Source of the DNA: Paratractidigestivibacter faecalis
GTDB lineage: Bacteria > Actinomycetota > Coriobacteriia > Coriobacteriales > Atopobiaceae
Direction of reading: 5' to 3'
Length of the DNA stretch: 64,000 nt
NCBI RefSeq assembly: GCF_003416765.1
Contig: NZ_QSNG01000001.1
Location: 336,742-400,741 of the forward strand
The position numbers and the translations under genes were made by a program. Of the stretch, positions 2,348 to 20,863 are shown one piece after another (within the stretch, counting starts at the first letter, position 1; the number at the start of each line of letters is the position of its first letter). The notes beneath the pieces were generated by a model that did not search any database, had not been told where the DNA came from, and was given only the letters and a program-made list of their open reading frames with translations.

Positions 2348-4708
2348 ATGGAAAAGCTCAAGGAGGTCGGCCGTCCCATCAAGCGCGTGGACGCCGCCGA
2401 CAAGGTCACGGGCCGTGCCAAGTTCACGGACGACCTGTGCCCAAAGCCGTGCCTGGAGGCAAAGATTCTGCACTCCACCATCGGCAACGGACGCGTCGTC
2501 TCCATGGACACGAGCGAGGCACTCAAGGTGCCGGGCGTCGTGGCCGTCTTCACGTGCTTCGACGTGCCTGACATCGTCTACCCGGTGGGCGGCCACCCCT
2601 GGTACGCGGACCGCGACGCCTCGCACCGAGACATCGCCGACCGCAAGCTCCTGGACGACCGCGTGCGCATCTACGGCGACAACATCGGCGTCGTGGTGGC
2701 CGAGGACACCGTGGCATGCGACCGCGCCCTCAAGCTCATCAAGGTGGAGTACGAGGAGTGGCCCGTGGTCTACGACCCCAAGGAGTCCCTGGCCCTTGGT
2801 GCCGCAGAGGGCGGCGCGGAGCACCCCGTGCAGGACCGCAAGCCCGACAACCTGGTGGCCCACACCCTCGCGGTGACCTCCGACGACAAGCTGGCCGCCC
2901 TCGGCTACTCCTCCGTGGAGGACGCCATCAACGACCCGGCCTACCACCACGTGAGCCTCCACATGGAGAGCCGCGAGCAGTCCCAGGTGCACATCGAGAC
3001 CTGCACCTCCTACTGCTACATGGAGAACAACAAGATTGTGTGCGTCTCGTCCACGCAGATCCCGCACGTCGTGCGCCGCGTCATCGGCCAGGCGCTGGGC
3101 ATCCCCTGGGGAGACGTGCGCGTCATCAAGCCCTACATCGGCGGAGGCTTTGGCACCAAGCAAGACGTGCACTACGAGCCGCTCAACGCCTGGGTCTGCA
3201 AGATGGTGGGCGGCCGCTGCGTGCGCATGGAGATCAGCCGCGAGGAGCTGTTCTGGGACACCTCGGGACGCCAGCCCAAGAGCTTTGACGTCGAGGCCTC
3301 CTGGGACGATGACATGAACCTCCATGCCCGCAAGATCTGCGCGTACTCCAACACGGGCGGCTACGGCCACCACGGCCACGCCCTTGTCCTCAACTCCGTA
3401 AACTCCTTCCGCTGGCTCTACCACACCCAGGAGAAGGCCGTTCGCTGCGAGGCGTACACCGCCTACACCAACGGCCCGCACACCGGCGCCATGCGCGCCT
3501 ACGGCGTGCCCGAGGGCAACTGGGCGGCCGAGTGCCTCATGGGCGACATCGCCTACGACATGGGCTGGGACGGCGTGGAGTTCCGCCTCAAGAACGTCTA
3601 CACCGACCAGTTCGTCGACGAGTTCACGCCGGGCGGCGTCATCGCGGCCCACACGTGCGCCATCCCGGAGTGCGTGGAGAAGGGCAAGGCCTACATCGAG
3701 TGGGACAAGAAGAAGCGCGAGTACGCCAACGAGACCGGCCCCATCCGCCATGGCGTGGGCGTCTCCTTCTTCGTGTACAAGACGGCCGTCGCGCCGTTTG
3801 CGCTGGAGACCGCCACGGCCGCGGTGACGCTCAACCAGGACGGCACCATCCAGCTGCAGATGGGTGCCACCGAGATCGGCCAGGGCGCCGACACGGTCTT
3901 CTCGCAGATGGCTGCCGAGGCCATCGGCGTGCGCACCGAGGACGTCCACATCGTGAGCTTCCAGGACACCGACGTCACGCCCTACGACACGGGCGCCTAC
4001 GCCTCCCGCCAGACCTACGTCAGCGGCACGGCCGTCAAGAAGGCCGGAGAGACGCTGCGCAAGAAGATCCTGGACTACGCGCGCTTTGTGTACCCCAACG
4101 CGCAGGGTGAGCTCACGCTGGAGGACGGCGTGGTGCTGGACGCCCTGGGCCACAAGGTGGTTGACCTGGCAACGCTGGGTCTGGACTCCTACTACAACAT
4201 GGACCACGCCTGCCAGCTCCACGCGCGCGAGACCATCAACGTTCACACCAACGCCATCGCCGGCGGCTGCACCTTCGCCGACGTCACGGTCGACATGCCC
4301 CTGGGCAAGGTGACGGTCAACAAGATCATCAACGTCCAGGACTCCGGCCGCCTCATCAACCCCAAGCTGGTGGAGCAGCAGATTCACGGCGGCATGGCCC
4401 AGGGCATTGGCTACGGCCTCTTCGAGGAGCTGCAGGTTGACCCCAAGACCGGCCGCGTGCTCAACCCCACGCTGCTTGACTACAAGATCCCGACCATGAT
4501 GGACCTGCCTGACCTGGCCGCGGACTTCGTCGAGAAGCCTGACCCCACGGGCCCCTACGGCAACAAGGCGGTGGGTGAGACGCCGGCCATCAGCCCGGCG
4601 GCCGCCATCCGCGACGCCATCCTGGATGCGACTGGCTGCAAGTTCTACGTCGAGCCCATGACGCCCCAGCGTCTCTTCGAGGGCTTCAAGGAAGCGGGGC
4701 TGATCTAG
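2348..4708 (+). CDS. xdhA: Molybdenum hydroxylase large subunit (xanthine dehydrogenase family, XdhA-like)
   Basis: 786-residue molybdopterin-binding subunit of the xanthine dehydrogenase/aldehyde oxidase family, expected to hydroxylate purines such as hypoxanthine or xanthine. Visible family motifs are GGGFGTKQD (Mo-cofactor contact), GAMRAYGVPEG, the Q-loop GATEIGQGADT and KAVGETPAISPAAA, where Glu744 matches the catalytic glutamate. The start is preceded by AAGGAGGGGG. FAD and 2Fe-2S subunit genes follow without a gap in E. coli xdhABC order. The 210 bases upstream are AT-rich for this genome and must hold the promoter, but I could not fix it. No in-frame UGA is present, so any selenium would be a labile ligand rather than selenocysteine. 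The exact substrate is inferred from context. Confidence 0.9.
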   Translation: MEKLKEVGRPIKRVDAADKVTGRAKFTDDLCPKPCLEAKILHSTIGNGRVVSMDTSEALKVPGVVAVFTCFDVPDIVYPVGGHPWYADRDASHRDIADRKLLDDRVRIYGDNIGVVVAEDTVACDRALKLIKVEYEEWPVVYDPKESLALGAAEGGAEHPVQDRKPDNLVAHTLAVTSDDKLAALGYSSVEDAINDPAYHHVSLHMESREQSQVHIETCTSYCYMENNKIVCVSSTQIPHVVRRVIGQALGIPWGDVRVIKPYIGGGFGTKQDVHYEPLNAWVCKMVGGRCVRMEISREELFWDTSGRQPKSFDVEASWDDDMNLHARKICAYSNTGGYGHHGHALVLNSVNSFRWLYHTQEKAVRCEAYTAYTNGPHTGAMRAYGVPEGNWAAECLMGDIAYDMGWDGVEFRLKNVYTDQFVDEFTPGGVIAAHTCAIPECVEKGKAYIEWDKKKREYANETGPIRHGVGVSFFVYKTAVAPFALETATAAVTLNQDGTIQLQMGATEIGQGADTVFSQMAAEAIGVRTEDVHIVSFQDTDVTPYDTGAYASRQTYVSGTAVKKAGETLRKKILDYARFVYPNAQGELTLEDGVVLDALGHKVVDLATLGLDSYYNMDHACQLHARETINVHTNAIAGGCTFADVTVDMPLGKVTVNKIINVQDSGRLINPKLVEQQIHGGMAQGIGYGLFEELQVDPKTGRVLNPTLLDYKIPTMMDLPDLAADFVEKPDPTGPYGNKAVGETPAISPAAAIRDAILDATGCKFYVEPMTPQRLFEGFKEAGLI

Positions 4709-5590
4709 ATGTACGACATCGAGTCTCTGTACGAGGCCACGAGCGTGGCCGACGCCTGCCGCGCCCTGGCCGCCGACCCCACGGCCGAGGTCATCGCCGG
4801 CGGCACCGACGTGCTGGTGAAGCTGCGCGAGGGCAAGGGTGCCCCCGCCCACCTGGTCTCCATCCACGAACTGCACGACGAGCTCGACGGCGTCACGCTC
4901 GCCGAAGACGGCACGGTGGAGATCGGCCCCATCACGTGGTTCCACCACGTGACCACGAGTCCCGTGATCCAGGCCACCGTCCCCACGCTGGGCGACGCCT
5001 GCGACACGCCCGGCGGCCCGCAGCTGCGCGTCTCGGGCACCATCGGCGGCAACGTCTGCACGGCGGCCACCTCGGGCGACTCCGCCTCCACGCTCTTTGC
5101 CTACGGCGCCCTCCTGGACGTGGCGAGCGTCCGCGGCACCCGCACCATCCCCATCGAGGAGTGGTACGCGGGCCCCGGCCGCTCCCACAAGGAGCGCGAC
5201 GAGCTTCTCGTCAAGATCCGCATCCCACGCAGCCACTACGAGGGCTTCACGGGTCACTACTTCAAGTACGGCAAGCGCAACGCCCTCGAGATCACCACCA
5301 TGGGCTGCTGCTGCCTGGTCAAGCTGGCGGCCGACAAGAGCATCATCGAGGACATCCGCCTGGCCTTTGGCGTGGCTGGCCCCACGCCCATGCGCGCGCT
5401 TGCCGCCGAGGACGCCGTGCGCGGCCTGCCCGTGGCCGAGGCCGCCGAGAAGGTCGGCGAGCTCGCGGCCGGCTGCACCAACCCGCGCGACTCCTGGCGT
5501 GCGTCCAAGGAGTTCCGCCTGCAGCTCATCAAGGAAATGTCGAAGCGCTCCCTCATCTATGCGGCGCGCAGGGGAGGGGCTGATATCTAA
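4709..5590 (+). CDS. xdhB: Molybdenum hydroxylase FAD-binding subunit (XdhB-like)
   Basis: 293-residue FAD subunit that passes electrons from the 2Fe-2S clusters to the acceptor. The FAD-binding stretches AGGTDVLVKLREG (residues about 30-43) and TIGGNVCTAATSGDSAS (about 112-128) are clear. The C-terminal part matches the CO-dehydrogenase flavoprotein C-terminal domain. The ATG starts on the base after the TAG of the large subunit gene, so the two are translationally coupled. Length and order match XdhB. This separate FAD subunit is typical of three-component bacterial enzymes. Confidence 0.9.
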   Translation: MYDIESLYEATSVADACRALAADPTAEVIAGGTDVLVKLREGKGAPAHLVSIHELHDELDGVTLAEDGTVEIGPITWFHHVTTSPVIQATVPTLGDACDTPGGPQLRVSGTIGGNVCTAATSGDSASTLFAYGALLDVASVRGTRTIPIEEWYAGPGRSHKERDELLVKIRIPRSHYEGFTGHYFKYGKRNALEITTMGCCCLVKLAADKSIIEDIRLAFGVAGPTPMRALAAEDAVRGLPVAEAAEKVGELAAGCTNPRDSWRASKEFRLQLIKEMSKRSLIYAARRGGADI

Positions 5591-6078
5591 TGGACATGAA
5601 GGTCCTCAAGTGCACCGTCAACGGCAAGCCCGTGCAGGTGGGCTATGACCCGCGCGAGTCGCTGCTGGACACGCTGCGCAACCGCCTCGGCCTCACGAGC
5701 GTCAAGCGCGGCTGCGAGGTTGGCGAGTGCGGCGCCTGCACCGTGCTCATCGACGGCGTGGCCACTGACACCTGCCTGTACCTCACCGACTGGGCCCAGG
5801 GCAAGGAGATCCTGACCGTCGAGGGCCTACAGGCCCCAGACGGCACGCTCAACCCCGTCCAGCAGGCGTTTGTCGACGAGTTTGCCGTCCAGTGCGGCTT
5901 CTGCATCCCGGGCATCATCATGAGCGCCATGGAGATGGTCGACTCGGGCAAGACGTTCACGAGGGACGAGATCCGCAAGAACCTCTCTGGCCACCTGTGC
6001 CGCTGCACCGGCTACCAGAACGTGATCAACGGCGTCGAGAAGGCCATCGAGATAGTCCACGAGAAGGTCGGCGAGTAG
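5590..6078 (+). CDS. xdhC: Molybdenum hydroxylase 2Fe-2S subunit (XdhC-like)
   Basis: 162-residue iron-sulfur subunit carrying both 2Fe-2S domains of the family. The plant-ferredoxin-type cluster is CEVGECGACTV plus a cysteine at TDTC. The second four-Cys cluster is CGFC and CRC in the helical domain (QCGFCIPG, HLCRCTGYQN). The start overlaps the previous stop by one base (TAATG); an ATG two codons later is an alternative. It completes a three-gene operon that ends before the large palindrome at 6095. XdhC is used here in the E. coli sense of the Fe-S subunit, not the MoCo-insertion XdhC chaperone. Confidence 0.92.
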   Translation: MDMKVLKCTVNGKPVQVGYDPRESLLDTLRNRLGLTSVKRGCEVGECGACTVLIDGVATDTCLYLTDWAQGKEILTVEGLQAPDGTLNPVQQAFVDEFAVQCGFCIPGIIMSAMEMVDSGKTFTRDEIRKNLSGHLCRCTGYQNVINGVEKAIEIVHEKVGE

Positions 6079-6194: not shown

Positions 6195-6677
6195 CTATGC
6201 CCAGCTCACGATGATTGTTGAGTCGTCGAGGGCGGCGCCCTGGCGGCTGGCGGCCTCGTCGCCCACGGTGACGTCGTAGCCCATGCGCGTGAGGTCGTTC
6301 ACGAACTTTGCGGCCTTGGCGCTGAAGGTGTTGAGCAGGCGCGCCGTCTCGTAGTCGGAGATCACGCTCTGCTCGCGGTTGTAGATGATGGCGCAGATGG
6401 CGTCTGCCACCTGCGTGTTGCTGTTTGCCAGCAGATCGTTGTAGAAGGAGTTGCCCGTGCCCTTGCCGTCCAGCTCGCCGGGGGCAAACTTCACCGCCAG
6501 CGAGGTGCGGCCGTACTTGGCGTACATGCGCACGCGCGTGTTGGTACGAGCCATCGCGTTGCGCGTGGCCCAGCCCATCGCGTTCTCGGCCAGGGTGTCG
6601 GCCTCGGCGTGCTCCTCCTCGGGGTTTGCGCTCGCGGCGATCTGCCTTGCCTCTTCGGCGCGAATCATGTCAAGCAT
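6195..6677 (-). CDS. Hypothetical protein, unrecognised
   Basis: 160 residues from an ATG with AAGGGAGAATAGC in front. I do not recognise the family. The N-terminal third is rich in Ala/Glu and looks helical (RAEEARQIAAS, EEEHAEADTLAENA). The middle contains RVRMYAKYGRTSLAVKF and the C-terminus ends in a short hydrophobic strand (STIIVSWA). There is no signal peptide, membrane segment or cysteine cluster, so it is probably cytoplasmic. It is transcribed towards xdhC and divergently from the YheO-type regulator, with 143 bases between the two starts, which could place it under that regulator. Codon use matches its neighbours. Confidence 0.7.
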   Translation of the reverse strand: MLDMIRAEEARQIAASANPEEEHAEADTLAENAMGWATRNAMARTNTRVRMYAKYGRTSLAVKFAPGELDGKGTGNSFYNDLLANSNTQVADAICAIIYNREQSVISDYETARLLNTFSAKAAKFVNDLTRMGYDVTVGDEAASRQGAALDDSTIIVSWA

Positions 6678-6820: not shown

Positions 6821-7513
6821 ATGAATAGCAAGATCGCGGCGCTCATGCCGTTCGTGGACTTTCTCGGCGCGGCGCTGGGGTCGGCTACCGAGGTCGTCCT
6901 GCACGACCTCACCGAGCCCGAGAACTCTGTGGTCAAGATCGTGAACGGCCACGTCTCCGGCAGAAACGTCGGGGCGCCCGCAACGGACTTCGCCCGCGCC
7001 ATCGTGCGCGAGTACGGCGACTCAAACATCAACTTTGTGACCGACTACGTCTGCAAGACCGTTGACGGCCGCCCGCTCCAGGGCTCCTCGTACTTCATCC
7101 GCGACGAGGGCGAGGTCGTGGGCATGATCTGCGTGAACATTGACCCGCAGCCCTTCCGCTCCCTGGAGGACGCGCTCAACGTCTTTATGGAGGCCTACCG
7201 CCATGGCGGCTCCGAGGAGTACCGCGACGCCAACCTGGACGCCGTCCGCGCCGCGTACAGCTCCTCCAGCGTGGAGACGCTGTCCCTGGGCGGCAACGAC
7301 GCCGGCGTGGTCGAGCAGGTTCGCGCCCTCATGGCCTCCATGGGCAAGACGCCCTCGGAGCTTGACCAGGCCGGCCGCATGGAGGTCGTCCGCAAGCTCG
7401 AGGAGACGGGTGCTTTCCTCATCAAGGGCGCGGCGGCAGACGTGGCCTGCGAGCTGCACGTCTCGGTGCCCAGCATCTACCGCTACCTCCAGAAGGTCCG
7501 CCGGGAGGGCTAG
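6821..7513 (+). CDS. YheO/DauR-type transcriptional regulator (PAS-like domain plus HTH)
   Basis: 230-residue regulator of the YheO/DauR type. Residues about 5-115 form the PAS-like sensor (LMPFVDFLGAALGSATEVVLHD, then GRPLQGSSYFIRDEGEVVGMICVN). Residues about 175-228 form a C-terminal helix-turn-helix (GAAADVACELHVSVPSIYRYLQKVR). Known relatives include DauR, which responds to amino-acid-derived ligands. The ATG at 6821 follows CAAGGGGTTGAGC; longer in-frame starts run into the divergent gene. It sits between the molybdenum hydroxylase and guanine deaminase genes and is the only complete transcription factor within the island, so it is the likely switch for purine catabolism. Its ligand is unknown. 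Confidence 0.85.
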   Translation: MNSKIAALMPFVDFLGAALGSATEVVLHDLTEPENSVVKIVNGHVSGRNVGAPATDFARAIVREYGDSNINFVTDYVCKTVDGRPLQGSSYFIRDEGEVVGMICVNIDPQPFRSLEDALNVFMEAYRHGGSEEYRDANLDAVRAAYSSSSVETLSLGGNDAGVVEQVRALMASMGKTPSELDQAGRMEVVRKLEETGAFLIKGAAADVACELHVSVPSIYRYLQKVRREG

Positions 7514-7778: not shown

Positions 7779-9068
7779 ATGGATTCCAAGACCGACTCCA
7801 AGTCCTTCGTCATCAAGGGTGACGTCTGCTACAGCACGAGCCCGCAGGAGGTCTCCTGCACCCAGGACGGCTACCTGGTCTGCGTCGACGGCAGGTCCGC
7901 CGGCGTCTTCGCCGAGCTCCCGCAGAGCTACGCCGACCTGCCCCTTATTGACTGCACCGGCCAGCTCGTGGTCCCCGGCATGAGCGACATCCACGTCCAC
8001 GCGCCCCAGTACGCCTTCCGCGGCCTGGGCATGGACCTGGAGCTCCTTGACTGGCTGAACACCCACACCTTCCCCGAGGAGTCCAAGTACGCGGACCTCG
8101 CCTACGCCGGCGACGCCTACGAGATCTTTGCGGACGACCTGCGCCACAGCGCCACCACCCGCGCCGTCGTCTTCGGCACGCTGCACGTGCCCGCAACGGA
8201 GCTTCTCATGGACGACCTTGAGGCCACGGGCCTGGTCACCTACGTCGGCAAGGTCAACATGGACCGCAACAGCCCCGACAACCTGGTCGAGGGCTCCGAG
8301 GAGTCCGCCGAGGCCACCCGCGGGTGGGTGGCGGAAGTCGCCGGCCGCTACGAGCGCACGCACTCCATCATCACGCCTCGCTTCACGCCCAGCGTGACCG
8401 ACGGCCTCATGGCCGAGCTCGCCGACATCGCCCACCAGAACGACCTGCCCGTCCAGAGCCACCTCTCCGAGAACCTCTCCGAGATCGGCTGGGTCAAGGA
8501 GCTCTGCCCCTGGTCCACCTGCTACGGCGACGCCTACGACCACTTCGGCCTCCTCGGCGAGAAGACCATCATGGCCCACTGCGTCTACTCCACCGACGAG
8601 GAGGTGGACCTGCTGCGCCGCACGGGCACCTACGTCGCCCACTGCCCGCAGTCAAACGCCCAGCTGGCAAGCGGTATCGCGCCCATCAGGCGCTACCTCG
8701 ACCTCGGCATGAACGTGGGCCTGGCCACCGACGTGGCCGGCGGTGCCGACCTCTCCATGTGGCGCTGCATGGCCGACGCCGTGGCCGTCTCCAAGCTGCG
8801 CTGGCGCCTGGTCGACCAGTCGCTCTCGCCCCTCACCACGCAGGAGGCCTTCTGGATGGCCACCATGGGCGGCGGCTCCTTCTTCGGCAAGGTCGGCTCC
8901 TTCGCCGGGGGCTACGAGCTCGACGCCCTGGTCCTTGATGACTCCGCCATCCGCACCCCGCGAGACCTCACCGTCTGGGAGCGCCTGGAGCGCTACGTCT
9001 ACCTGGCGGAGGAGGGCGGCTACCTCACCCGCAAGTTCGTCGCCGGCAGGCAGATCGACCTGGACTAG
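7779..9068 (+). CDS. guaD: Guanine deaminase (amidohydrolase superfamily)
   Basis: 429-residue metal-dependent deaminase converting guanine to xanthine, the substrate of the xanthine dehydrogenase upstream. The signature SDIHVHAPQYAFRG, then LLDWLNTHTFPEE, is that of guanine deaminases. Zinc ligands appear as HVH, SHLSEN, MAHCVY and ATDVAGG. The ATG at 7779 is preceded by GGGAGAAG at a longish spacing; the frame extends upstream, but that part has no family similarity. The first residues (MDSKTDSKS) are a short non-conserved tail. In gut purine clusters the related slot is called ssnA; this protein looks closer to GuaD. Hairpin 9096-9131 follows. Confidence 0.88.
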   Translation: MDSKTDSKSFVIKGDVCYSTSPQEVSCTQDGYLVCVDGRSAGVFAELPQSYADLPLIDCTGQLVVPGMSDIHVHAPQYAFRGLGMDLELLDWLNTHTFPEESKYADLAYAGDAYEIFADDLRHSATTRAVVFGTLHVPATELLMDDLEATGLVTYVGKVNMDRNSPDNLVEGSEESAEATRGWVAEVAGRYERTHSIITPRFTPSVTDGLMAELADIAHQNDLPVQSHLSENLSEIGWVKELCPWSTCYGDAYDHFGLLGEKTIMAHCVYSTDEEVDLLRRTGTYVAHCPQSNAQLASGIAPIRRYLDLGMNVGLATDVAGGADLSMWRCMADAVAVSKLRWRLVDQSLSPLTTQEAFWMATMGGGSFFGKVGSFAGGYELDALVLDDSAIRTPRDLTVWERLERYVYLAEEGGYLTRKFVAGRQIDLD

Positions 9069-9438: not shown

Positions 9439-10653
9439 GTGAGCGAGAAGATCCAGTGGGCCATCAACCAGATGCCCAAGAGCGATGATGCCCACCTCGG
9501 CATCATGTCCCTGGATAACGTTTCCAAGGCGCGTGCTTTCCACAAGAGCTTCCCCCAGTACTCCGTGACCCCGCTTGCCCGTCTTGACGGCCAGGCGGCT
9601 CGCCTGGGTCTGGGCAACCTCTGCGTCAAGGACGAGAGCTACCGCTTTGGCCTCAACGCGTTCAAGGTCCTGGGCGGCTCCTTCGCCATGGCCAACTACA
9701 TTGCCGACGAGACCGGCAAGGACGTTGCCGACTGCACCTACGACTACCTGACCTCCGACGAGCTCGCCTCCGACTTTGGCCAGGCCACCTTCTTCACCGC
9801 CACCGACGGCAACCACGGCCGCGGCGTGGCATGGGCCGCCAACAAGCTCGGCCAGAAGGCCGTCGTGCACATGCCCAAGGGTTCCACCAAGCCCCGCTTC
9901 GACAACATCGCCGCCGAGGGCGCCACGGTGACCATCGAGGAGGTCAACTACGACGAGTGCGTCCGCATGGCGGCCGCCGAGGCCGACGCCTGCGAGCGCG
10001 GCGTCATCGTCCAGGACACCGCCTGGGAGGGCTACGAGAAGATCCCGTCCTGGATCATGGAGGGCTACGGCACCATGGCCTCCGAGGCTGCCGAGCAGCT
10101 CCGCGAGATGGCCATCAACCGCCCGACGCACGTCTTCGTGCAGGCTGGCGTGGGCTCGCTCGCCGGCGCCGTGGTCGGCTACTTCACCAACCTCTACCCC
10201 GACAACCCGCCCACCTTCGTCGTGGCCGAGTGCGCCCCTGCCGCCTGCCTCTACAAGGGCGCCGCTGCCGGTGACGGCGAGCCGCGCATCGTCGACGGCG
10301 ACATGCCCTCCATCATGGCCGGCCTCTGCTGCGGCGAGCCCAACATCCTGGGCTGGGACATCCTGCGCAACCACGTGACCGCCTTCGTGTCCTGCCCGGA
10401 CTGGGTCACCGCCCGCGGCATGCGCACCCTCGGCGCCCCCGAGAAGGGCGACCCGCGCGTCATCTCCGGCGAGTCCGGCGCCGTCACCACGGGCCTCGTC
10501 GAGACCCTCATGATGGACCCGGAGTACGCCGAGCTCAAGGAGGCCATCGGCCTGGACAAGACCAGCTCCGTGCTGTGCTTCTCCACCGAGGGCGACACCG
10601 ACCCGGAGCAGTACCGCCGCATCGTGTGGGAGGGCGAGTACCCCACCTGCTAG
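9439..10653 (+). CDS. ygeX: 2,3-Diaminopropionate ammonia-lyase (YgeX)
   Basis: 404-residue PLP enzyme that splits 2,3-diaminopropionate into pyruvate and two ammonia, the last carbon-yielding step of the anaerobic purine route. The fold-type II signature is clear: Lys76 in FGLNAFKVLGGSFA is the PLP lysine, and FTATDGNHGRGVAW binds the cofactor phosphate. Length fits DAPAL enzymes. The start is GTG with GGAGGGGAG seven bases upstream, behind its own promoter and structured leader. The reaction passes through 2-aminoacrylate, which explains the RidA gene at 17009. It is followed by ygeY and ygeW in the E. coli gene set, with the order W and Y changed. Confidence 0.93.
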   Translation: MSEKIQWAINQMPKSDDAHLGIMSLDNVSKARAFHKSFPQYSVTPLARLDGQAARLGLGNLCVKDESYRFGLNAFKVLGGSFAMANYIADETGKDVADCTYDYLTSDELASDFGQATFFTATDGNHGRGVAWAANKLGQKAVVHMPKGSTKPRFDNIAAEGATVTIEEVNYDECVRMAAAEADACERGVIVQDTAWEGYEKIPSWIMEGYGTMASEAAEQLREMAINRPTHVFVQAGVGSLAGAVVGYFTNLYPDNPPTFVVAECAPAACLYKGAAAGDGEPRIVDGDMPSIMAGLCCGEPNILGWDILRNHVTAFVSCPDWVTARGMRTLGAPEKGDPRVISGESGAVTTGLVETLMMDPEYAELKEAIGLDKTSSVLCFSTEGDTDPEQYRRIVWEGEYPTC

Positions 10654-13609: not shown

Positions 13610-14551
13610 ATGGGCAAGCGCATCGTCATCGCCCTCGGCGGAAACGCCCTCGGCAAGAACCTTCCTGAGCAGATGGAGGCGGTCCAGCACACCGCCCGCG
13701 CCATCGTTGACCTCATCGAGCAGGGCAACGAGGTCATCGTCGTCCACGGCAACGGCCCGCAGGTGGGCATGATCGCCAACGCCATGACCGAGCTCACCCG
13801 CTCCGACCCTCAGAAGTACATTCCGTGCCCGCTGTCCGTCTGCGGCGCCATGAGCCAGGGCTACATTGGCTACGACCTGCAGAACGCCCTGCGTGAGGAG
13901 ATGGAGCGCCGCAACATCACGCGTGGCGTCGCCACCGTCCTGACGCAGGTCGAGGTCGACCCCGCCGACCCCGCCTTCCAGAACCCCACCAAGCCCATCG
14001 GCTCCTTCATGACCGAGGACGAGGCCGAGCAGCTCAAGCGCGACCGCGGCTATGACTTCGTCGAGGACTCCGGGCGCGGCTACCGCCGCGTCGTTGCCTC
14101 CCCCAAGCCTCGCCGCATCGTCGAGCTGGACACCATCTCCTCCCTCGTCGCGGCCGACCACGTGGTCATCGCCTGCGGTGGCGGCGGCATCCCGGTGCTG
14201 CCCACCGGCAACCACCACCTCAAGGGCGCCGCTGCCGTCATCGACAAGGACTTTGCCGCTGAGCTTTTGGCCGAGTCCTTGGACGCCGACTACCTCGTGA
14301 TCCTCACCGCCGTGGAGAAGGTCGCCGTCAACTTTGGCAAGCCCGACCAGCAGTGGCTCGACGAGCTCACGCCCGAGACTGCCGGCAAGTACGTGGACGA
14401 GGGCCAGTTTGCCCCCGGCTCCATGCGGCCCAAGGTCCAGGCTGCCGTGAAGTTTGCCGAGTCCAAGCCCGGCCGCAGCGCGCTCATCACGCTTCTTGAC
14501 CGCGCCGCCGACGGAATCGCCGGCAAGACGGGTACCATCGTTCGTGCGTAG
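13610..14551 (+). CDS. arcC: Carbamate kinase (ArcC/YqeA type)
   Basis: 313-residue amino-acid-kinase-family enzyme making ATP from carbamoyl phosphate and ADP. Motifs are VIALGGNALGKN at the N-terminus, VVHGNGPQVGM, the PCPLSVCGAMSQGYIGY insert, VIACGGGGIPV and the C-terminal DKDFAAELLAESLDADYLVILTA split over 14251-14310. Length is standard. The ATG at 13610 follows GAGAGGAGAG; an upstream ATG at 13602 is out of frame. Sitting after ygeW, it most likely harvests the carbamoyl phosphate that YgeW releases, as proposed for YqeA; arginine deiminase genes are absent here. Confidence 0.92.
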   Translation: MGKRIVIALGGNALGKNLPEQMEAVQHTARAIVDLIEQGNEVIVVHGNGPQVGMIANAMTELTRSDPQKYIPCPLSVCGAMSQGYIGYDLQNALREEMERRNITRGVATVLTQVEVDPADPAFQNPTKPIGSFMTEDEAEQLKRDRGYDFVEDSGRGYRRVVASPKPRRIVELDTISSLVAADHVVIACGGGGIPVLPTGNHHLKGAAAVIDKDFAAELLAESLDADYLVILTAVEKVAVNFGKPDQQWLDELTPETAGKYVDEGQFAPGSMRPKVQAAVKFAESKPGRSALITLLDRAADGIAGKTGTIVRA

Positions 14552-14590
14552 CGTTTGCATGCCAGTTTGATCGAAAGGGGGCCGAGTCCT

Positions 14591-15580
14591 TTGAAGCCAG
14601 ACCTGAGAGCGTACCTTCTGGGGTTCGAGGGTGCGCGCGTCTTTGGACCCGGCCCTCGCGAGCTCCTTGAGCGCGTGGAGTCCGAAGGCAGCCTTCGAGC
14701 TGCCGCCATCAGCATGGGCATGGCCTACACCAAGGCCAGCCGCATGGTGAAGGCGGCGGAGGCTTCCTTCGGATTTCCGCTTACGGAGCGCACCATCGGC
14801 GGCGTCGGCGGCGGCGGGAGCCGCCTGACCACCGAGGCGCGCGATCTTCTCGACCGCTACGAGGCCTTCGAGGCCGCTTGCGAGGACGACCTGCGCCGTA
14901 ACTTCTCGGAGTGCTTCTCGGGCTTTGCCGACGTGCCGCGCATCGGCTGCGTGGTCATGGCCTCCGGCCTGGGGCGCCGCTTCAGGCATGCCGCCGGCGC
15001 CGCCCAGACCGATGCCCTGCCGGGCGCCGACGAGGACAAGCTCCTGCAGCCGCTCCTGGGCGTGCCGGTGCTGCAGCACACGCTCTCCTCGCTTCCCGAG
15101 AACATCCTCAACATCGTGGTGGTCACTCGCTCCGAGGCCGTCGAGGGCCTCTGCGAGGACCTTGGCGTGCGCTGTGTCCGCCACGCGGGCGCCTACCAGA
15201 GCGACACCATCCGCCAGGGCCTCCGTGCCCTCTCCGGCGTGCCCGGGTGCCTCTTCGTCCCCGGCGACCAGCCCATGGTCACCGAGGCCAGCGTGCGCGC
15301 CCTGGTGGGGGAGTACCAGCTTCACCCCGGCAGCATCGTCCGCCTGGCCTGGCGCGGCGTCCCGGCAAGCCCCATACTGTGGCCAAGCGAGGACCTGCCG
15401 GCCCTTGCCGCCCTGGAGGGTGACGCCGGCGGAAGCGCGCTTCTCGCCCGCCGAGAGGAGCTCGGGAGGAGGGTGCGCCTGGTCGAGGCTACCCACGAGC
15501 TGGAGGTTGCCGACGTCGACACCCCCGACGACCTGGAACGGATTGAGACACTGGTCCGAGATTGGGAGGAGCTGGTATGA
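14591..15580 (+). CDS. ModE-type HTH fused to MocA/YgfJ-like nucleotidyltransferase
   Basis: 329 residues in two parts. Residues about 1-105 are a ModE-like winged helix (GSLRAAAISMGMAYTKASRM, then RTIGGVGGGGSRLTTEARDLL, with the Gly-rich wing typical of ModE). Residues about 115-325 are a MobA/MocA-type NTP transferase (VVMASGLGRRF, DKLLQPLLG, FVPGDQPMV). MocA adds CMP to molybdopterin for xanthine-dehydrogenase-family enzymes, and E. coli YgfJ occupies this slot in the purine cluster. A TTG start at 14591 is chosen because GAAAGGGGG precedes it; a TTG 12 codons earlier is possible. The gene overlaps hyuA by four bases. DNA binding by the fusion is inferred. Confidence 0.82.
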   Translation: MKPDLRAYLLGFEGARVFGPGPRELLERVESEGSLRAAAISMGMAYTKASRMVKAAEASFGFPLTERTIGGVGGGGSRLTTEARDLLDRYEAFEAACEDDLRRNFSECFSGFADVPRIGCVVMASGLGRRFRHAAGAAQTDALPGADEDKLLQPLLGVPVLQHTLSSLPENILNIVVVTRSEAVEGLCEDLGVRCVRHAGAYQSDTIRQGLRALSGVPGCLFVPGDQPMVTEASVRALVGEYQLHPGSIVRLAWRGVPASPILWPSEDLPALAALEGDAGGSALLARREELGRRVRLVEATHELEVADVDTPDDLERIETLVRDWEELV

Positions 15581-16944
15581 GGATTCTTGCCAACGGAACG
15601 CTTGTCACGCCGGAGGGGCTGCGCCACGGCGACGTTGCCCTGGACGGCGACAAGATCGCCCGCATTGCCGCGCACATCGAGCCGGCCGACGGCGACGAGG
15701 TGGAGGACGTCCGCGGCTGCTGGGTGTTTCCCGGCTTCATCGACGGTCACACGCACATGCAGTGCTGGACCGGAATAGACTGGACGGCCGACAGCTTCGA
15801 GACGGGCACGCGTGCCGCCGCCTGCGGCGGAACTACGACCATCGTTGACTACGCCACGGCCGACCGCGGCGTGACCATGCCCGATGCCCTTGACGAGTGG
15901 CACCGCCGCGCGGACGGCACCTGCACGGCAAACTATGCCTTCCACATGGCCCTGGCCGAGTGGAACGAGCGCAACCGCGAGGACCTGGCCGTCATGCGCG
16001 AGCGTGGCGTCTGCTCCTTCAAGACCTACTTTGCCTACGACCACCTGCGCCTCGACGACGCCGAGACCCTGGCCGTCATGGAGAGCCTGGAGCCCCTGGG
16101 CGGCACGCTCTGCGTCCACTGCGAGAACGGCACCCTCGTCAACGAGCTGCAGCGCCGCGTGTACGACGAGGGCATCCACGGGCCTGAGGGCCACCCCCTG
16201 AGCCGCCCCGTCGAGTGCGAGGCCGAGGCCATTAGCCGCCTGCTCTACCTGGCGCACCTGGCCGGCGACGCCCGCGTGAACGTGGTGCACCTCTCCACCA
16301 AGATGGGGCTGGACGCCATCCGCGCCGCCAAGGCCCGCGGCCAGCGCAACATCTTCGTGGAGACCTGCCCGCAGTACCTGCTGCTTGACGACACCTGCTT
16401 CCTTGAGCAGGGGGAGGACGGCCTTGCGGGCCTGGCCTACGTCATGAGTCCGCCGCCGCGCAAGCCCGTCGACCGCGCCGCCCTGCGCGAGGCGCTCCTG
16501 GCCGGCGAGATTGACACCATCGCCACCGACCACTGCTCCTTCAACATCCACGGCCAGAAGGACCGCGGCGCCGAGGACTTCCGCAAGGTGCCCAATGGCG
16601 GCGCCGGCGTGGAGCACCGTCCCGCCCTGGTGGCCACCACCTTCGAGGGCCAGCTTGGCCCGGAGGACCTGTGCCGCCTCATGAGCGAGAACCCCGCGCG
16701 CGTCTTTGGGATGTTCCCGCGCAAGGGCGCGCTCGTCGAGGGCGCCGACGCCGACGTCTGCGTCTGGGACCCCAAGGCAACCTGGACCATCAGCGCCGCC
16801 ACCCAGCACCAGAACGTCGACCACACTCCCTACGAGGGCTTCGAGTGCCACGGCCGCGCGCACTTGGTCTACGTCAATGGCGATCTTGCCGCCCGTGACG
16901 GCGAGCCCACCGGTGCCATGCCCGGCCGCTATGTGGCAAGATAG
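15577..16944 (+). CDS. hyuA: D-hydantoinase / dihydropyrimidinase family amidohydrolase (HyuA)
   Basis: 455-residue cyclic-amide hydrolase with the binuclear metal site of the family: GHTHMQ (HxH), the probable carbamylated lysine in CSFKTYFAY, CVHCENG, VNVVHLST and ATDHCSF. It would open a hydantoin- or ureido-ring intermediate made from reduced purines. It starts at ATGA overlapping the stop of the previous gene, with GGGAGGAG upstream, so it is co-translated with the MocA fusion. The assignment to purine ring cleavage comes from the cluster; the sequence alone gives only the hydantoinase family. Confidence 0.9.
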   Translation: MRILANGTLVTPEGLRHGDVALDGDKIARIAAHIEPADGDEVEDVRGCWVFPGFIDGHTHMQCWTGIDWTADSFETGTRAAACGGTTTIVDYATADRGVTMPDALDEWHRRADGTCTANYAFHMALAEWNERNREDLAVMRERGVCSFKTYFAYDHLRLDDAETLAVMESLEPLGGTLCVHCENGTLVNELQRRVYDEGIHGPEGHPLSRPVECEAEAISRLLYLAHLAGDARVNVVHLSTKMGLDAIRAAKARGQRNIFVETCPQYLLLDDTCFLEQGEDGLAGLAYVMSPPPRKPVDRAALREALLAGEIDTIATDHCSFNIHGQKDRGAEDFRKVPNGGAGVEHRPALVATTFEGQLGPEDLCRLMSENPARVFGMFPRKGALVEGADADVCVWDPKATWTISAATQHQNVDHTPYEGFECHGRAHLVYVNGDLAARDGEPTGAMPGRYVAR

Positions 16945-17008: not shown

Positions 17009-17389
17009 ATGTCCAACAAGGCCATCGTCACCGAGAAGGCCCCCGCCGCCGTCGGTCCCTACTCCGCCGCCATCCAGGCCGGCAACTGCATCCACGTCTC
17101 TGGTCAGCTGCCCATCGACCCCGCCACCGGCGCCTTCGCCGGCGAGGACATCGCCAGCCAGACCCGCCAGAGCCTGACCAACATCAAGAACATCCTCGAG
17201 GCCGCCGGCGCCTCCATGGCCAACGTCGCCGAGGTCACCGTCCTTCTCGACGACATCAACGACTTCGGCGCCATGAACGAGGTCTACGGCGAGTTCTTCT
17301 CCGAGCCGTACCCCTCCCGCGCCGCCTTCGAGGTTGCCGCCCTCCCCAAGGCCGCCAAGGTCGAGATCAAGGCCGTCGCCTACCTGTAA
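17009..17389 (+). CDS. ridA: RidA-family enamine/imine deaminase
   Basis: 126-residue YjgF/YER057c/UK114 protein. It has the typical N-terminal VGPYSAAIQAG, VSGQLPIDPATGAF, QTRQSLTNIKNILEAAGA and the C-terminal YPSRAAFEVAALPKAAKVEIKAVA with the conserved arginine. RidA hydrolyses 2-aminoacrylate and similar enamines. Placed in the island, it would clear the aminoacrylate made by YgeX and speed pyruvate release. ATG with AAAGGAGAACAGC upstream. It is the last gene of the arcC-hyuA run before a strong terminator. Confidence 0.93.
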   Translation: MSNKAIVTEKAPAAVGPYSAAIQAGNCIHVSGQLPIDPATGAFAGEDIASQTRQSLTNIKNILEAAGASMANVAEVTVLLDDINDFGAMNEVYGEFFSEPYPSRAAFEVAALPKAAKVEIKAVAYL

Positions 17390-17500: not shown

Positions 17501-17932
17501 CTACTCCTGTGGGAGCTCGCTTCCGCAGTGCGGGCAGCGGGTGGCGCCGGGCTTGTGCTCCTCCAGGCAGAAGGGGCAGACGGGCACGGGCTCCTCGGCG
17601 GCCTGCTCGGCTGCGGCCCCGGTGAGCTTCTCGCTGAGGTCCTTTGCCTTGTTGAGAGCCTTGACCAGGCAGAACACCACAAACGCAACAATCAGGAAGT
17701 TGATGCAGGCACTGATGAACGCGCCGAAGTCGATGTCGGTGCCGGGAACCACCAGTCCCGAGATCTCTCCCGCGCCGCCGCCCGCCACCACGCTGATCAG
17801 CGGGTTGATGATGTTGTTGGTGAGCGCCGTCACGATGGACGTGAACGCGCCGCCGATGATGACGCCGACGGCCATGTCCATGACGTTGCCGCGGTTGATG
17901 AACTCCTTGAACTCGTTGATGAACTTGCGCAC
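17501..17932 (-). CDS. mscL: Large-conductance mechanosensitive channel with C-terminal zinc ribbon
   Basis: 143-residue channel that releases solutes on hypo-osmotic shock. The classic N-terminus FINEFKEFINRGNVMDMAVGV is followed by TM1 (VIIGGAFTSIVTALTNNII) and TM2 (FGAFISACINFLIVAFVVFCLVKAL). The usual C-terminal helix is extended by a rubredoxin-like ribbon, CPFC, ten residues, CPHC, not part of standard MscL. A GTG at 17932 is preferred because AGAGGAG lies in front of it and it gives the normal family N-terminus; an ATG at 17950 is the alternative. It faces away from the selenium genes and probably has no functional link to them. Confidence 0.9.
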   Translation of the reverse strand: MRKFINEFKEFINRGNVMDMAVGVIIGGAFTSIVTALTNNIINPLISVVAGGGAGEISGLVVPGTDIDFGAFISACINFLIVAFVVFCLVKALNKAKDLSEKLTGAAAEQAAEEPVPVCPFCLEEHKPGATRCPHCGSELPQE

Positions 17933-17998
17933 GGGCGCTCCTCTCCCCATCCGGTGACCAAACCCCTCAAGTTTACGTCGCCCTCAACCCCGCCGCCT

Positions 17999-18022: not shown

Positions 18023-18171
18023 GCCCGAATCCCACCGCTCGCCCGAGCGTTGGGTCAATGCGGATATAACGCCAAACAAAAAGTATGGTCAAATCAAACC
18101 CAGTCTTGAAGCACGGTCGAGAGTGGAGGCGCAGACGTGCGCTTCTCGGCGCGGCTAGGGAAAGGAGAGGT

Positions 18172-19260
18172 ATGGACCTCAAGAAGGAGAGGGTCGCCAT
18201 CGTTGCCGCCGGCGCGGTCATCGGTGTCATTGCGGCCATGCTGGTGTTCTTCGGGAACCCGGCCAACATGGGCTTCTGCATAGCCTGCTTCATCCGCGAC
18301 ACGGTGGGTGGCCTGGGCCTTCACCGCGCCGAGGCCGTGCAGTACATCAGGCCCGAGATCGTGGGCCTCGTGCTGGGCAGCTTCCTCATCGCCATCGGAA
18401 AGGGCGAGTGGCAGGCCCGCGGCGGCTCCGCCCCGCTCACCCGCTTCGTGCTGGGCTTCTGCGTCATGGTGGGCTGCCTCATGTTCCTGGGCTGCCCCTT
18501 CCGCATGATCTTGCGCATCGCCGGCGGAGACCTCAACGCCGTCGTTGGCCTCGTGGGCTTTGCCTGCGGCATCCTGACCGGCACCTGGTTCCTCAACCAC
18601 GGCTACTCGCTCGGCCGCACCTACAGGCTTCCCGCCTCCGAGGGCGCCGCGTGGCCCATCATCCAGGTCGCCATCCTGGTGCTGCTCGTCGTGGCCCCCG
18701 CGTTCATCTTCTTTAGCCCCGAGGGCTCCGGCCCCGGAGCCAAGCACGCCGCCATCGCCATCTCCCTGGCTGCCGGCGTCATCGTGGGCGCCCTGGCCCA
18801 GCGCACCCGCCTCTGCATGGTCGGCGGCATCCGCGACATGATCCTCTTCCGCGAGCCCAAGCTCCTCATGGGCTTCGGCGCCATTCTCGTTGGTGCCCTG
18901 GTGACCAACCTCGTGCTCACCGCCACCACCGGCAACGCCTACTTCAACCTGGGCTTCGAGGGCCAGCCCGTGGCCCACAACGACGCCGTCTGGAACTTCC
19001 TCGGCATGGCCCTGGCCGGCCTCGGCTGCGTCCTTCTGGGCGGCTGTCCGCTGCGTCAGCTCGTCCTTTCCGGCGAGGGCAACGGCGACTCCGCCATGGC
19101 CATCCTCGGCCTTGCCGTGGGCGCCGCGTTCTGCCACAACTTTGGCCTGGCTTCCAGCGCCAAGGGCGCCACGCCCGCCGGCCAGGTGGCCGTCGTCATC
19201 GGCCTCGTGGTGGTCGTCGCCATCGCCTGCGCCAACAGCATCTGCAAGAAGAAGGCCTAG
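18172..19260 (+). CDS. yedE: YedE-type selenium-metabolism membrane transporter
   Basis: 362-residue polytopic membrane protein of the YeeE/YedE (Sulf_transp) family with about nine to ten membrane segments. It has paired, internally repeated motifs with cysteines next to arginines: FCIACFIRD, LGCPFRMILR, RLCMVGGIRD and GGCPLRQL. Members beside selD, tusA-like and DUF3343 genes are annotated as selenium-metabolism YedE (FdhT), proposed to import a selenium or sulfur species. ATG at 18172 follows AAAGGAGAGGT. The downstream order yedE, tusA-like, DUF3343, selD, all on one strand with short gaps, supports that role; the transported form is not established. Confidence 0.87.
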   Translation: MDLKKERVAIVAAGAVIGVIAAMLVFFGNPANMGFCIACFIRDTVGGLGLHRAEAVQYIRPEIVGLVLGSFLIAIGKGEWQARGGSAPLTRFVLGFCVMVGCLMFLGCPFRMILRIAGGDLNAVVGLVGFACGILTGTWFLNHGYSLGRTYRLPASEGAAWPIIQVAILVLLVVAPAFIFFSPEGSGPGAKHAAIAISLAAGVIVGALAQRTRLCMVGGIRDMILFREPKLLMGFGAILVGALVTNLVLTATTGNAYFNLGFEGQPVAHNDAVWNFLGMALAGLGCVLLGGCPLRQLVLSGEGNGDSAMAILGLAVGAAFCHNFGLASSAKGATPAGQVAVVIGLVVVVAIACANSICKKKA

Positions 19261-19271: not shown

Positions 19272-19481
19272 ATGGAGACTTTGGATGCACGTGGGCTTTC
19301 CTGCCCGGAGCCGGTTGTCATGATGCGCCAGGCGCTCTTCGAGAAGCCGGCGGCCGCCCGCATGATCGTGGACGCCGTCGCCGCGCGCGAGAACGTCACT
19401 CGCTACGCAAAGAGTCAGGGCTACGACGTCGCCGTCACCGAGGGCGACGGCGAGTGGACCCTCGACGTCACCCGCGTCTAG
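19272..19481 (+). CDS. TusA/SirA-like sulfur or selenium carrier
   Basis: 69-residue TusA-fold protein with the active-site motif LSCPEPVV (Cys11). It corresponds to the N-terminal domain of the selenium protein YedF but lacks the C-terminal DsrE-like half that YedF usually has. It starts 11 bases after yedE with GGGGAGAAGAAC as ribosome site. Between a YedE transporter and SelD it most likely relays selenium as a persulfide/perselenide on the cysteine; this is inference from context. Confidence 0.88.
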   Translation: METLDARGLSCPEPVVMMRQALFEKPAAARMIVDAVAARENVTRYAKSQGYDVAVTEGDGEWTLDVTRV

Positions 19482-19495
19482 GACGGTTCCCTCAC

Positions 19496-19750
19496 ATGGC
19501 CAGGATAGCGACGTTCTTCTCGCACTTTGGCGCCGTGAGATTCCGGCGGCTGTGCCGGGCCCGTGGCGTCGAGGTGGAGCTCATGCCCGTGCCGAGGTCC
19601 CTCTCAAGCAGCTGCGGGACGTGTGCCCGCTTTGAGGGAGACCCACTCGCGCCGGGGGAGGCTTGGCCCGAGGAGGTCGAGCTCGTGGCGGAGGAGACCG
19701 GCTCCGCCGCGCTACCCTATGAGGTGACCTGGCGCGCTGAGGGCGCGTAA
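19496..19750 (+). CDS. DUF3343 protein, putative Se/S carrier
   Basis: 84-residue small protein of the DUF3343 type: an N-terminal ATFFSHFGAVRFRRLCRARG followed by ELMPVPRSLSSSCGTCARF with a CxxC pair (CGTC). This family is regularly found with selenium-trait genes and is called a putative selenium/sulfur carrier. The start at 19496 has only a weak ribosome site, 14 bases after the tusA-like stop, which suggests translational coupling. No structure-based function is known to me. Confidence 0.78.
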   Translation: MARIATFFSHFGAVRFRRLCRARGVEVELMPVPRSLSSSCGTCARFEGDPLAPGEAWPEEVELVAEETGSAALPYEVTWRAEGA

Positions 19751-19822: not shown

Positions 19823-20863
19823 ATGGACATGACGGGCGTGCGTCTGACCGAGCTGGTGGAGGCCGCCGGCTGCGCGGCAAAGATCGCGCCGGGCGCGCTG
19901 GCAAAGGTGCTGGGGGACCTTCCCCGCACGGAGGACCCCAACCTGCTCGTGGGCTTCGACGCCTCCGACGATGCGTGCGTCTATGACCTGGGCGACGGTC
20001 GCGGCCTGGTGCAGACCTGCGACTTTTTCCCGCCCATGGTGGACGACCCCTTCCTGTTTGGCCAGGTGGCGGCCGCAAACGCGCTTTCTGACGTCTATGC
20101 CATGGGCGGCGAGCCCAAGCTGGCGCTCAACCTGCTGTGCTTTCCCAACTGCCTGGGCATAGAGGTCGCGGGGCAGATCCTGGCCGGCGGCGCCGACCGC
20201 TGCCAGCTGGCGGGCTGCGTGGTCGCCGGCGGCCACTCCATCAACGACCACGAGCCCAAGTACGGCCTCTCCGTCACGGGCTTCGTCCAGCTTGACGGGC
20301 TTCTCGCCAACGCGGGGGCCAAGGTGGGGGACGCCCTGGTGCTCACCAAGGCCCTGGGCACGGGCGTCATCACCACGGCGTACAAGGGCGGCCTGCTTGA
20401 CGAGGCCGGCGTCCGCGTGGCGACGGACTCCATGATCCGCCTGAACGACACGGTCGGCCGCGTGGGCGGAGACATCGTCCGCCACGCCTGCACCGACGTC
20501 ACGGGCTTCTCGCTCATGGGCCACTCCTGCGAGATGGCCGAGGCCTCGGGCGTCACGCTCCAGATCGACGCCGACGCGGTGCCCATGCTTGACGGTGCGC
20601 GCGAGATGGCCCGCATGGGCATGCTGCCTGCGGGCGCCTACCGCAACCGCGACTTCTTTGGGCCGCGCGTTCAGATGGGTCCCGACGTGCCGCTTGACCT
20701 GGCGGACGTCCTGTTTGACCCCCAGACCTCCGGCGGCCTGCTGGTGAGCGTCGACGCCTCGCAGGCAGACGCGCTCGTCTCTCGCCTGCGCGACGAGGGC
20801 CTGCCTGCGGCCGTCATCGGCCAGGTGGCCGAGCGCGGTCAGAAGAGCGTCGAGGTCAGGTAG
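19823..20863 (+). CDS. selD: Selenide, water dikinase (selenophosphate synthetase)
   Basis: 346-residue ATP-dependent enzyme making selenophosphate. The N-terminal glycine-rich loop has Cys17 and Lys20 at the E. coli positions (AAGCAAKIAP), but the second loop cysteine, position 19, is alanine. Other motifs: VGFDASDDACVYDLG, QTCDFFPPMVDDPFLFGQVAAANALSDVYAMGG broken at 20026-20110, DVTGFSLMGH and FDPQTSGGLL. Cys17 is cysteine, not selenocysteine. RBS GGGAGAAAGAC. No selA, selB or tRNA-Sec is in the window, so this may be an orphan selD serving the labile selenium cofactor of the molybdenum hydroxylase. Confidence 0.94.
   Translation: MDMTGVRLTELVEAAGCAAKIAPGALAKVLGDLPRTEDPNLLVGFDASDDACVYDLGDGRGLVQTCDFFPPMVDDPFLFGQVAAANALSDVYAMGGEPKLALNLLCFPNCLGIEVAGQILAGGADRCQLAGCVVAGGHSINDHEPKYGLSVTGFVQLDGLLANAGAKVGDALVLTKALGTGVITTAYKGGLLDEAGVRVATDSMIRLNDTVGRVGGDIVRHACTDVTGFSLMGHSCEMAEASGVTLQIDADAVPMLDGAREMARMGMLPAGAYRNRDFFGPRVQMGPDVPLDLADVLFDPQTSGGLLVSVDASQADALVSRLRDEGLPAAVIGQVAERGQKSVEVR

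Follow-up and report, generated by a model that had tools for sequence, protein, structure and literature searches.

A probable purine-degradation locus with selenium-supply genes in Paratractidigestivibacter faecalis, a candidate electron donor for XdhAC and a ModE-MocA fusion

In the reductive route of anaerobic uric-acid breakdown, urate is converted to 2,8-dioxopurine by XdhD or XdhAC, after which YgfK, SsnA and HyuA act; YgeW with carbamate kinase, YgeY and YgeX then carry the product on to pyruvate (PMC12990295; PMC12507026). In Escherichia coli the cluster runs xdhABC-ygeW-ygeX-ygeY-hyuA-yqeA-yqeBC-mocA-ygfK-ssnA-ygfM-xdhD-xanQ-guaD, and a coriobacterial uric-acid cluster has already been published for Collinsella aerofaciens (PMC12542679). 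Orphan selD genes have been proposed to serve selenium-dependent molybdenum hydroxylases (Haft and Self 2008, PMC2276186), and the growth of Clostridioides difficile on urate needs both selD and yqeB (Johnstone and Self 2024, PMC11448449). Here, we describe a locus of this kind in P. faecalis. The stretch analyzed, which we call the window, comprises 64,000 nucleotides (C1:336742-400741, where C1 is contig NZ_QSNG01000001.1 of a genome of 2.11 Mb that is 99% complete), and its positions 2348-20863 hold an island of purine-degradation and selenium-supply genes. Very probably, this island is about half of a locus of ~36 kb (C1:321.5-357.6 kb) that serves to degrade purines anaerobically via the reductive uric-acid pathway, probably with XdhAC as a selenium-dependent molybdenum hydroxylase.

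The other half was found by looking past the window's edge. An earlier, sequence-only reading of the window had noted that ygfK and xdhD were not seen and would have to be elsewhere or replaced. ygfK seemed to be missing because the window's edge cut it off: the genome has a single over-cut-off match to YgfK, at C1:324727-327717 (TIGR03315, 1281 bits, cut-off 835), which ends ~9 kb upstream of the window's start. This match rules out the absence or replacement of ygfK, and XdhAC occupies the place of xdhD. In the upstream stretch that we read (L010, C1:317000-336999), ssnA, ygfK and xdhAC are located 5.5-14 kb from the window and run in the same direction as the island. The sequence-only reading had also held that a genome with no ygfK-like reductase anywhere would count against it; the genome search that it had proposed found ygfK, yqeB and yqeC all present, and ssnA too. 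The features of the locus are given below, with profile scores compared to curated NCBIfam cut-offs or Pfam gathering scores.

L010:3416-4075, - strand: second YheO-like regulator, divergent, upstream
L010:4550-6130, + strand: NCS2 purine permease
L010:6189-7580, + strand: SsnA (TIGR03314, 536 bits, cut-off 455)
L010:7683-10727, + strand: YgfK (TIGR03315)
L010:10876-11406, + strand: RnfB-like polyferredoxin, between ygfK and xdhAC
L010:11422-14199, + strand: XdhAC, selenium-dependent xanthine dehydrogenase family (TIGR03311, 1126 bits, cut-off 830)
L010:14519-19403 (C1:331518-336402), + strand: BMP-type ABC importer (ATPase, two permeases, first BMP protein), continuing into the window (NCBIfam matches below cut-off)
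Window 1-823, + strand: second of three BMP-type substrate-binding proteins, starting upstream of the window; its frame joins L010:19531 (weak match to NF047927, below cut-off)
Window 933-2060, + strand: third BMP-type substrate-binding protein (weak match to NF047927, below cut-off; neighboring genes)
Window 2348-4708, + strand: xdhA, molybdenum subunit of xanthine dehydrogenase (NF043082, 1091 bits, cut-off 780)
Window 4709-5590, + strand: xdhB, FAD subunit (NF043083, 375 bits, cut-off 310)
Window 5590-6078, + strand: xdhC, [2Fe-2S] subunit (NF043084, 250 bits, cut-off 217)
Window 6821-7513, + strand: YheO-like PAS_6 + HTH_22 transcriptional regulator (PF08348, PF13309, over cut-off)
Window 7779-9068, + strand: guanine deaminase-like amidohydrolase, the frame's first start codon being at 7551 (TIGR02967, below cut-off; PF01979)
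Window 9439-10653, + strand: ygeX, 2,3-diaminopropionate ammonia-lyase (TIGR03528, 610 bits, cut-off 532)
Window 10770-12155, + strand: ygeY, M20 hydrolase (NF009555, 617 bits, cut-off 321)
Window 12235-13434, + strand: ygeW, knotted carbamoyltransferase (TIGR03316, 717 bits, cut-off 500)
Window 13610-14551, + strand: carbamate kinase, yqeA/arcC (TIGR00746, 384 bits, cut-off 358)
Window 14555-15580 (start 14555 or 14591), + strand: ModE-type helix-turn-helix domain fused to MocA-type cytidylyltransferase (PF00126 and PF12804, over cut-off)
Window 15577-16944, + strand: hyuA, D-hydantoinase (TIGR02033, 488 bits, cut-off 393)
Window 17009-17389, + strand: ridA (PF01042, passes the gathering score)
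Window 17501-17950, - strand: mscL, bystander gene (PF01741, passes the gathering score)
Window 18085-19260 (start 18085 or 18172), + strand: yedE, putative selenium transporter (TIGR04112, 496 bits, cut-off 200)
Window 19272-19481, + strand: TusA-like sulfurtransferase (PF01206, passes the gathering score)
Window 19496-19750, + strand: DUF3343/Se_S_carrier (PF11823, passes the gathering score)
Window 19823-20863, + strand: selD, selenophosphate synthetase, without an in-frame TGA (TIGR00476, 379 bits, cut-off 125)

Given these scores, chance is no issue for the gene calls. The genes that the sequence-only reading had named within the island (xdhABC, guaD, ygeX, ygeY, ygeW, carbamate kinase, a MocA-like gene, hyuA, ridA, yedE, tusA, DUF3343 and selD) were recovered at their places and in their order; every gene of the island but mscL is on the + strand. 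Two of its identifications had to be amended. mscL does interrupt the series, but the second interruption, taken to be a hypothetical gene, is the YheO-like regulator at 6821-7513; the MocA-like gene does have a MocA-type part, but the same frame also holds the ModE-type domain. A 362-residue frame at 6425 was rejected as a single long gene: the whole frame had no NCBIfam match, and its 3' part is the PAS_6 + HTH_22 regulator.

The locus shares its enzyme set with E. coli, at identities of 43% for YgfK, 61% for YgeW, 59% for YgeY, 48% for YgeX, 38% for HyuA, 63% for YqeA, 32% for SsnA and 32% for GuaD. It differs in having XdhAC for XdhD-YgfM, an added polyferredoxin, a MocA with a ModE-type domain, and selenium-supply genes alongside, while yqeB and yqeC lie elsewhere. 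Three Flavonifractor loci (L051, L054 and L061) have the core order ygfK-xdhAC-ygeX-ygeY-ygeW-carbamate kinase in common with it, and their XdhAC is ~65-66% identical. A ferredoxin stands between ygfK and xdhAC in L051 but not in L054 or L061, and the stretches compared from these three loci gave no match to our xdhABC, hyuA or selenium genes. The orphan-selD locus of Enterococcus faecalis likewise has selD without selA or mnmH, accompanied by yqeB, yqeC, mocA and purine genes; there, yqeB, yqeC, selD and a gene like selenocysteine (Sec) lyase form a cluster (PMC2276186), whereas here selD is grouped with yedE-tusA-DUF3343, and yqeBC with a Mod-type transporter and molybdenum cofactor (Moco) genes.

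All families of the reductive route are present, with XdhAC for XdhD, and most exceed their curated cut-offs. From the genes, their order and their co-occurrence we infer activities, substrates, selenium content and electron route as follows. Purines would enter by way of the NCS2 permease and the BMP-type ABC importer. Guanine would be deaminated and xanthine oxidized by XdhABC to urate, which XdhAC would convert to 2,8-dioxopurine. YgfK and SsnA would then reduce and open the first ring, and HyuA, YgeW, carbamate kinase, YgeY and YgeX would turn the remainder into pyruvate, ammonia, CO2 and ATP. The substrate of RidA is the aminoacrylate released by YgeX, and RidA would clear this enamine. 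In computed available electrons, xanthine, guanine and acetate stand at 8 each and urate at 6. Xanthine balances without an outside donor (xanthine + 6 H2O -> acetate + 3 CO2 + 4 NH3); urate needs two further electrons to reach acetate. This deficit fits the requirement for formate of a termite-gut isolate (PMC12507026). guaD and xdhABC may share the locus because guanine and xanthine need no outside donor.

The sequence-only reading had predicted anaerobic growth on purines with a selenium-activated hydroxylase. Profile searches of the source genome gave no match to selA and none to mnmH; selD, yqeB and yqeC co-occur in it. Selenocysteine or selenouridine as the purpose of the selenium genes was rejected on those two negatives. 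With neither selA nor mnmH found, no other known use is left for SelD; together with the need of C. difficile for selD and yqeB on urate, this supports selenium use by the present route. The prediction is thus supported by the genome; the enzyme, however, is likely XdhAC, upstream of the window, and not clearly the XdhABC within it. In our reading, XdhAC is a probable selenium-dependent molybdenum hydroxylase. YedE and DUF3343 have been described as selenium genes (Lin et al. 2015, PMC5322559), and activated selenium would be supplied to XdhAC by YedE, TusA, DUF3343 and SelD. Cofactor maturation would fall to YqeB, YqeC, an XdhC-like protein, a Mod-type transporter and Moco proteins, all encoded 920 kb from the island. 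There, at C1:1.277 Mb, yqeB (342 bits, cut-off 220) and yqeC (151 bits, cut-off 73) have as neighbors genes for the XdhC-like factor, MoaA (Radical_SAM + Mob_synth_C), MoaC fused to a MOSC domain (L134:4841-5812, in the genome's own Moco operon) and a MoeA-like protein; a binding protein, a permease and an ATPase beside them are read as ModABC.

There is a minor but real chance that the XdhABC of the window is the selenium enzyme instead, or that both enzymes carry selenium. XdhABC is closer to selD than XdhAC is, the two are members of a single family, and either could be served by the XdhC-like maturation factor. However, XdhA is recognized best by the XdhA_XDHase model (1091 bits) and reaches just 236 bits on TIGR03311, the model that XdhAC passes. 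Moreover, selD in C. difficile is fully needed for the use of urate and not at all for that of hypoxanthine (PMC11448449).

XdhAC as the selenium enzyme is also consistent with the distribution of these genes in the family. We searched 104 genomes of the source's family (probably Atopobiaceae) with at least 90% completeness, its own included; E-value limits differed among the searches. ygfK was found in 56 genomes (55 over cut-off), XdhAC in 56, selD in 59, yqeB in 58 and selA in 8, and the profile search for mnmH gave none in the 104. XdhAC and selD occur together in 55 genomes and are both lacking in 44; XdhAC is alone in one (G089) and selD in four (G036, G057, G059 and G082). For ygfK and selD, 55 genomes have both, G089 has ygfK alone and four have selD alone, among them G070, with a ygfK fragment at a contig end. 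selA is absent from 51 of the 59 selD genomes, every one of which has yqeB, and an in-frame TGA in selD, presumably the selenocysteine form, appears in exactly the eight selA genomes. As for the genomes with selD but no XdhAC, G036 carries selA, the xdhAC of G082 is interrupted by a contig end, and no second hydroxylase was seen in the short stretch of G059. G057 (L143/L154) is a case of its own: it is without ygfK or a TIGR03311 xanthine dehydrogenase, and other xdh-like genes, a hyuA-like gene and ygeX adjoin a modE/mocA-ridA-yqeC-yqeB-selD-mod-moa block, which may point to a further pathway with a selenium-dependent hydroxylase. Peng et al. (2016, PMC5029168) counted 312 selenium-cofactor users among more than 5200 bacteria; since they call selD orphan only where the selenium-cofactor trait is lacking, the genomes described here would be selenium-cofactor-only users in their terms. 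No coriobacteria are among the selenium-cofactor users in the excerpts of that paper.

Several observations weigh against the reading of the locus given so far. Guanine deaminase (TIGR02967, 341 bits, cut-off 375) and MocA (TIGR03310, 90 bits, cut-off 186) fall below their cut-offs. XdhAC and E. coli XdhD share just 26% identity, and Glu606 of XdhD, proposed to orient urate, sits in an insert that XdhAC lacks. On the XdhD model TIGR03313 (cut-off 1102), with which just these proteins were scored, XdhAC reaches 236 bits and XdhA 324. It is family and position that suggest XdhAC as the urate reductase. Deletion of yqeC in C. difficile was without clear phenotype (PMC11448449). Finally, the association of XdhAC with selD (Fisher p ~2e-23) comes, like the counts, with no account taken of relatedness, and G089 has xdhAC and a piece of ygfK without a match to selD or yqeB.

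The arrangement of the locus was mapped in 24 sequence sets from 22 genomes, including our own, picked to cover genera. yqeB shares a stretch with purine genes in 16 of the 20 mapped ygfK carriers (the exceptions are G000, G037, G065 and G083), and mod-type or Moco genes are also there in 15 of those 16. The usual layout among the mapped sets thus brings together genes for purine breakdown, maturation of the cofactor, uptake of molybdate and synthesis of Moco, and in many cases selD as well. ygfK and selD lie on one contig in 31 of the 55 genomes with both, and no more than 60 kb apart in 20. That purine and selenium genes are joined in a coriobacterium, as the sequence-only reading had emphasized, is true, but the joining is common in the family and not special to this strain; its uniqueness is contradicted by the family counts. 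Our genome is a rearranged version, with the maturation/Moco block far off and selD beside yedE-tusA-DUF3343. In G044, a genome of the same genus, the maturation block follows ridA and mscL and selD is on another contig; in G065, yedE-tusA-DUF3343 also comes after ridA. Two other kinds of gene recur in these stretches. A class-V aminotransferase that reads like Sec lyase is often near yqeB/selD (17 of 24 sets; one copy was profile-tested); it was not found in our own purine-selD stretch, where yedE-tusA-DUF3343 is present instead. Frames resembling, by eye, 2-hydroxyglutaryl-CoA dehydratase and its activase were seen in G013, G035, G065, the selD stretch of G044 and others, some of them near selD.

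These maps bear on whether yedE-tusA-DUF3343-selD is just a chance neighbor beyond mscL, its selenium serving something else. We regard this as improbable. mscL does stand between the two blocks on the opposite strand, the selD of G044 is indeed on a separate contig, and our own selD does not adjoin yqeB, unlike that of many relatives. Yet no other known use of selenium remains without a match to selA or mnmH, selD tracks XdhAC across the family, and the 20 genomes with selD close to ygfK argue for a connection. Still less probable is a route via xanthine and xanthinase (the Rabinowitz pathway) in place of 2,8-dioxopurine: clostridial xanthine dehydrogenases are reversible and the reduction of urate to xanthine is discussed by the C. 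difficile authors (PMC11448449), but the locus has the complete YgfK-SsnA-HyuA-YgeW-YgeY-YgeX set.

The reductive route through XdhAC raises the matter of its electrons. The physiological donor of XdhAC has been called undiscovered (Percudani 2025 commentary, PMC12990295), and Li et al. (2025, PMC12507026) suggested that reduced ferredoxin serves the enzymes of C. difficile. The XdhAC of our locus has its own [2Fe-2S] domain and no match to the FAD subunit. Clustering of the unexplained frames in relatives' loci identified a small Cys-rich protein encoded between ygfK and xdhAC. Thirteen aligned copies (12 from the family and one from Flavonifractor; the short G083 copy and the L055 copy were left out) share three CxxCxxCxxxC motifs without variation, and another four Cys in them could bind a fourth cluster; our own copy has 21 Cys and four such motifs. 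The best matches of its profile in the PDB are the RnfB chains 9eri_B (E 1.7e-44) and 7zc6_B (E 2.4e-41). The likeness to RnfB is that of the multi-[4Fe-4S] ferredoxin domain: the polyferredoxin, with ~155-190 residues, is without RnfB's N-terminal part, the match starting at residue 98 of a 333-residue RnfB chain, and it falls below the cut-off of the NCBIfam RnfB models. The highest 19-residue hydropathy mean of our copy is 1.06, giving no sign of an N-terminal membrane part, and the gene lies between ygfK and xdhAC, not in an Rnf operon.

Up to 36 candidates per genome were scored for this protein in the 104 genomes. All 28 full-length matches (at least 209 bits) are beside ygfK or xdhAC: 27 are next to ygfK, and the other (G070) precedes xdhAC on the short contig with the ygfK fragment. 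A short version (77-84 bits, covering the last third of the profile) is beside ygfK in 18 genomes, so that one or the other version adjoins ygfK in 45 of the 56 ygfK genomes. Another 26 weaker matches (105-131 bits) are at a distance from ygfK, most of them within frames of 270-320 residues, the size of RnfB. Outside the family, the clear cases among the named loci are L051 and L055; the latter, which is without ygfK, has the polyferredoxin directly before xdhAC. In L089 an RnfB-like frame of 270 residues is present but does not adjoin xdhAC. For A. hallii, a Blautia and C. aerofaciens, a Fer4 gene has been noted within the uric-acid cluster and assigned to iron storage (mSystems 2025, PMC12542679); it may or may not encode the same protein, since the C. 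aerofaciens and A. hallii stretches that we compared end short of ygfK/xdhAC. The association has exceptions, which weigh against the protein as donor of XdhAC. In eleven of the 56 ygfK genomes, ygfK is not accompanied by this ferredoxin: ten of the eleven have ygfK and xdhAC separated by 99-260 bases, and G079 has the two genes on separate contigs. In the 11 named non-coriobacterial loci where ygfK and xdhAC share a strand and are less than 5 kb apart, a clear polyferredoxin stands between them once, in L051, and L082 has a weak 46-residue match there.

Position and likeness make the polyferredoxin a candidate electron donor of XdhAC. Without an FAD subunit, XdhAC would probably receive its electrons from this RnfB-like protein. 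The window also encodes an iron-only hydrogenase-like protein with ferredoxin domains (50480-52099), which could draw on the same ferredoxin pool.

The second unusual protein of the locus is the fusion encoded at 14555-15580. Its helix-turn-helix domain resembles that of the ModE regulator; the rest is a MocA-type nucleotidyltransferase. Residues 36-117 match ModE (TIGR00637, 2.4e-14, 53 bits, below the 98.5-bit cut-off; PF00126 is over its cut-off), and the domain's sequence matches the ModE-type PDB entries 2ijl (E 1.9e-9) and 1b9m (E 0.0025). The molybdate-binding C-terminal domain of ModE has no Pfam match, and NTP_transf_3 is in its place. Residues 160-329 give the TIGR03310 match mentioned above; the AlphaFold2 model of the protein (pLDDT 90) has nucleotidyltransferases as its best PDB matches, in keeping with that fold.

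Fusion in one frame was seen in 16 of the 24 mapped sets and in 21 of 80 named loci, the 21 all bearing actinobacterial titles. Three contigs are on both lists (G044/L013, G027/L043 and G041/L044), and sets cut by the end of a stretch, such as G057, were counted as having mocA only or neither. The fusion alignment comprised 15 of 22 fused proteins, from the window and the named loci. Two clostridial loci (L064 and L092) have the two domains as separate genes, in L064 in the order hyuA-mocA-modE-selD and followed by a frame resembling yqeB by eye. mocA without a ModE part is found in 18 named loci, including that of C. aerofaciens. In a literature search of open papers, no title among the matches listed concerned a ModE-MocA fusion. 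From its architecture, our guess is that the fusion is a cofactor-linked regulator.

A more specific proposal joins these observations, and we hold it tentatively, at somewhat less than even confidence. The polyferredoxin would descend from the ferredoxin domain of an RnfB whose membrane part was lost, and would now be a dedicated donor to XdhAC, with reduced ferredoxin from the oxidation of pyruvate driving the first step; the fusion would be a cofactor-loading switch, coupling the last step of molybdenum cofactor formation to transcription of the cluster; and in about half of the family selenium would have no other use.

Regulatory signals were also sought. A promoter and terminator scan gave counts no higher than those of shuffled sequence, and an Rfam search of the window and L010 returned rRNAs only, with no riboswitch at the gathering score. 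The rRNA operon (16S, 23S, 5S; window 27083-32033) begins ~6 kb downstream of selD.

The core finding is an ordinary one, because the pathway and its presence in coriobacteria were already known. A search of open papers for coriobacteria with purines or selenium listed no title on Atopobiaceae and purines among its matches. Of specialist interest, and new as far as the open papers searched go, are the candidate electron donor, the pattern of selD across the family together with its molybdenum-selenium layout, and the ModE-MocA fusion. Because a polyferredoxin gene is conserved between ygfK and xdhAC, the question of the donor is directly testable. With many genomes in which selD has a single known use, the family offers a clean setting for the study of selenium delivery to molybdenum hydroxylases. 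The locus links the micronutrients molybdenum and selenium to the bacterial disposal of uric acid, and it thereby bears on gout.

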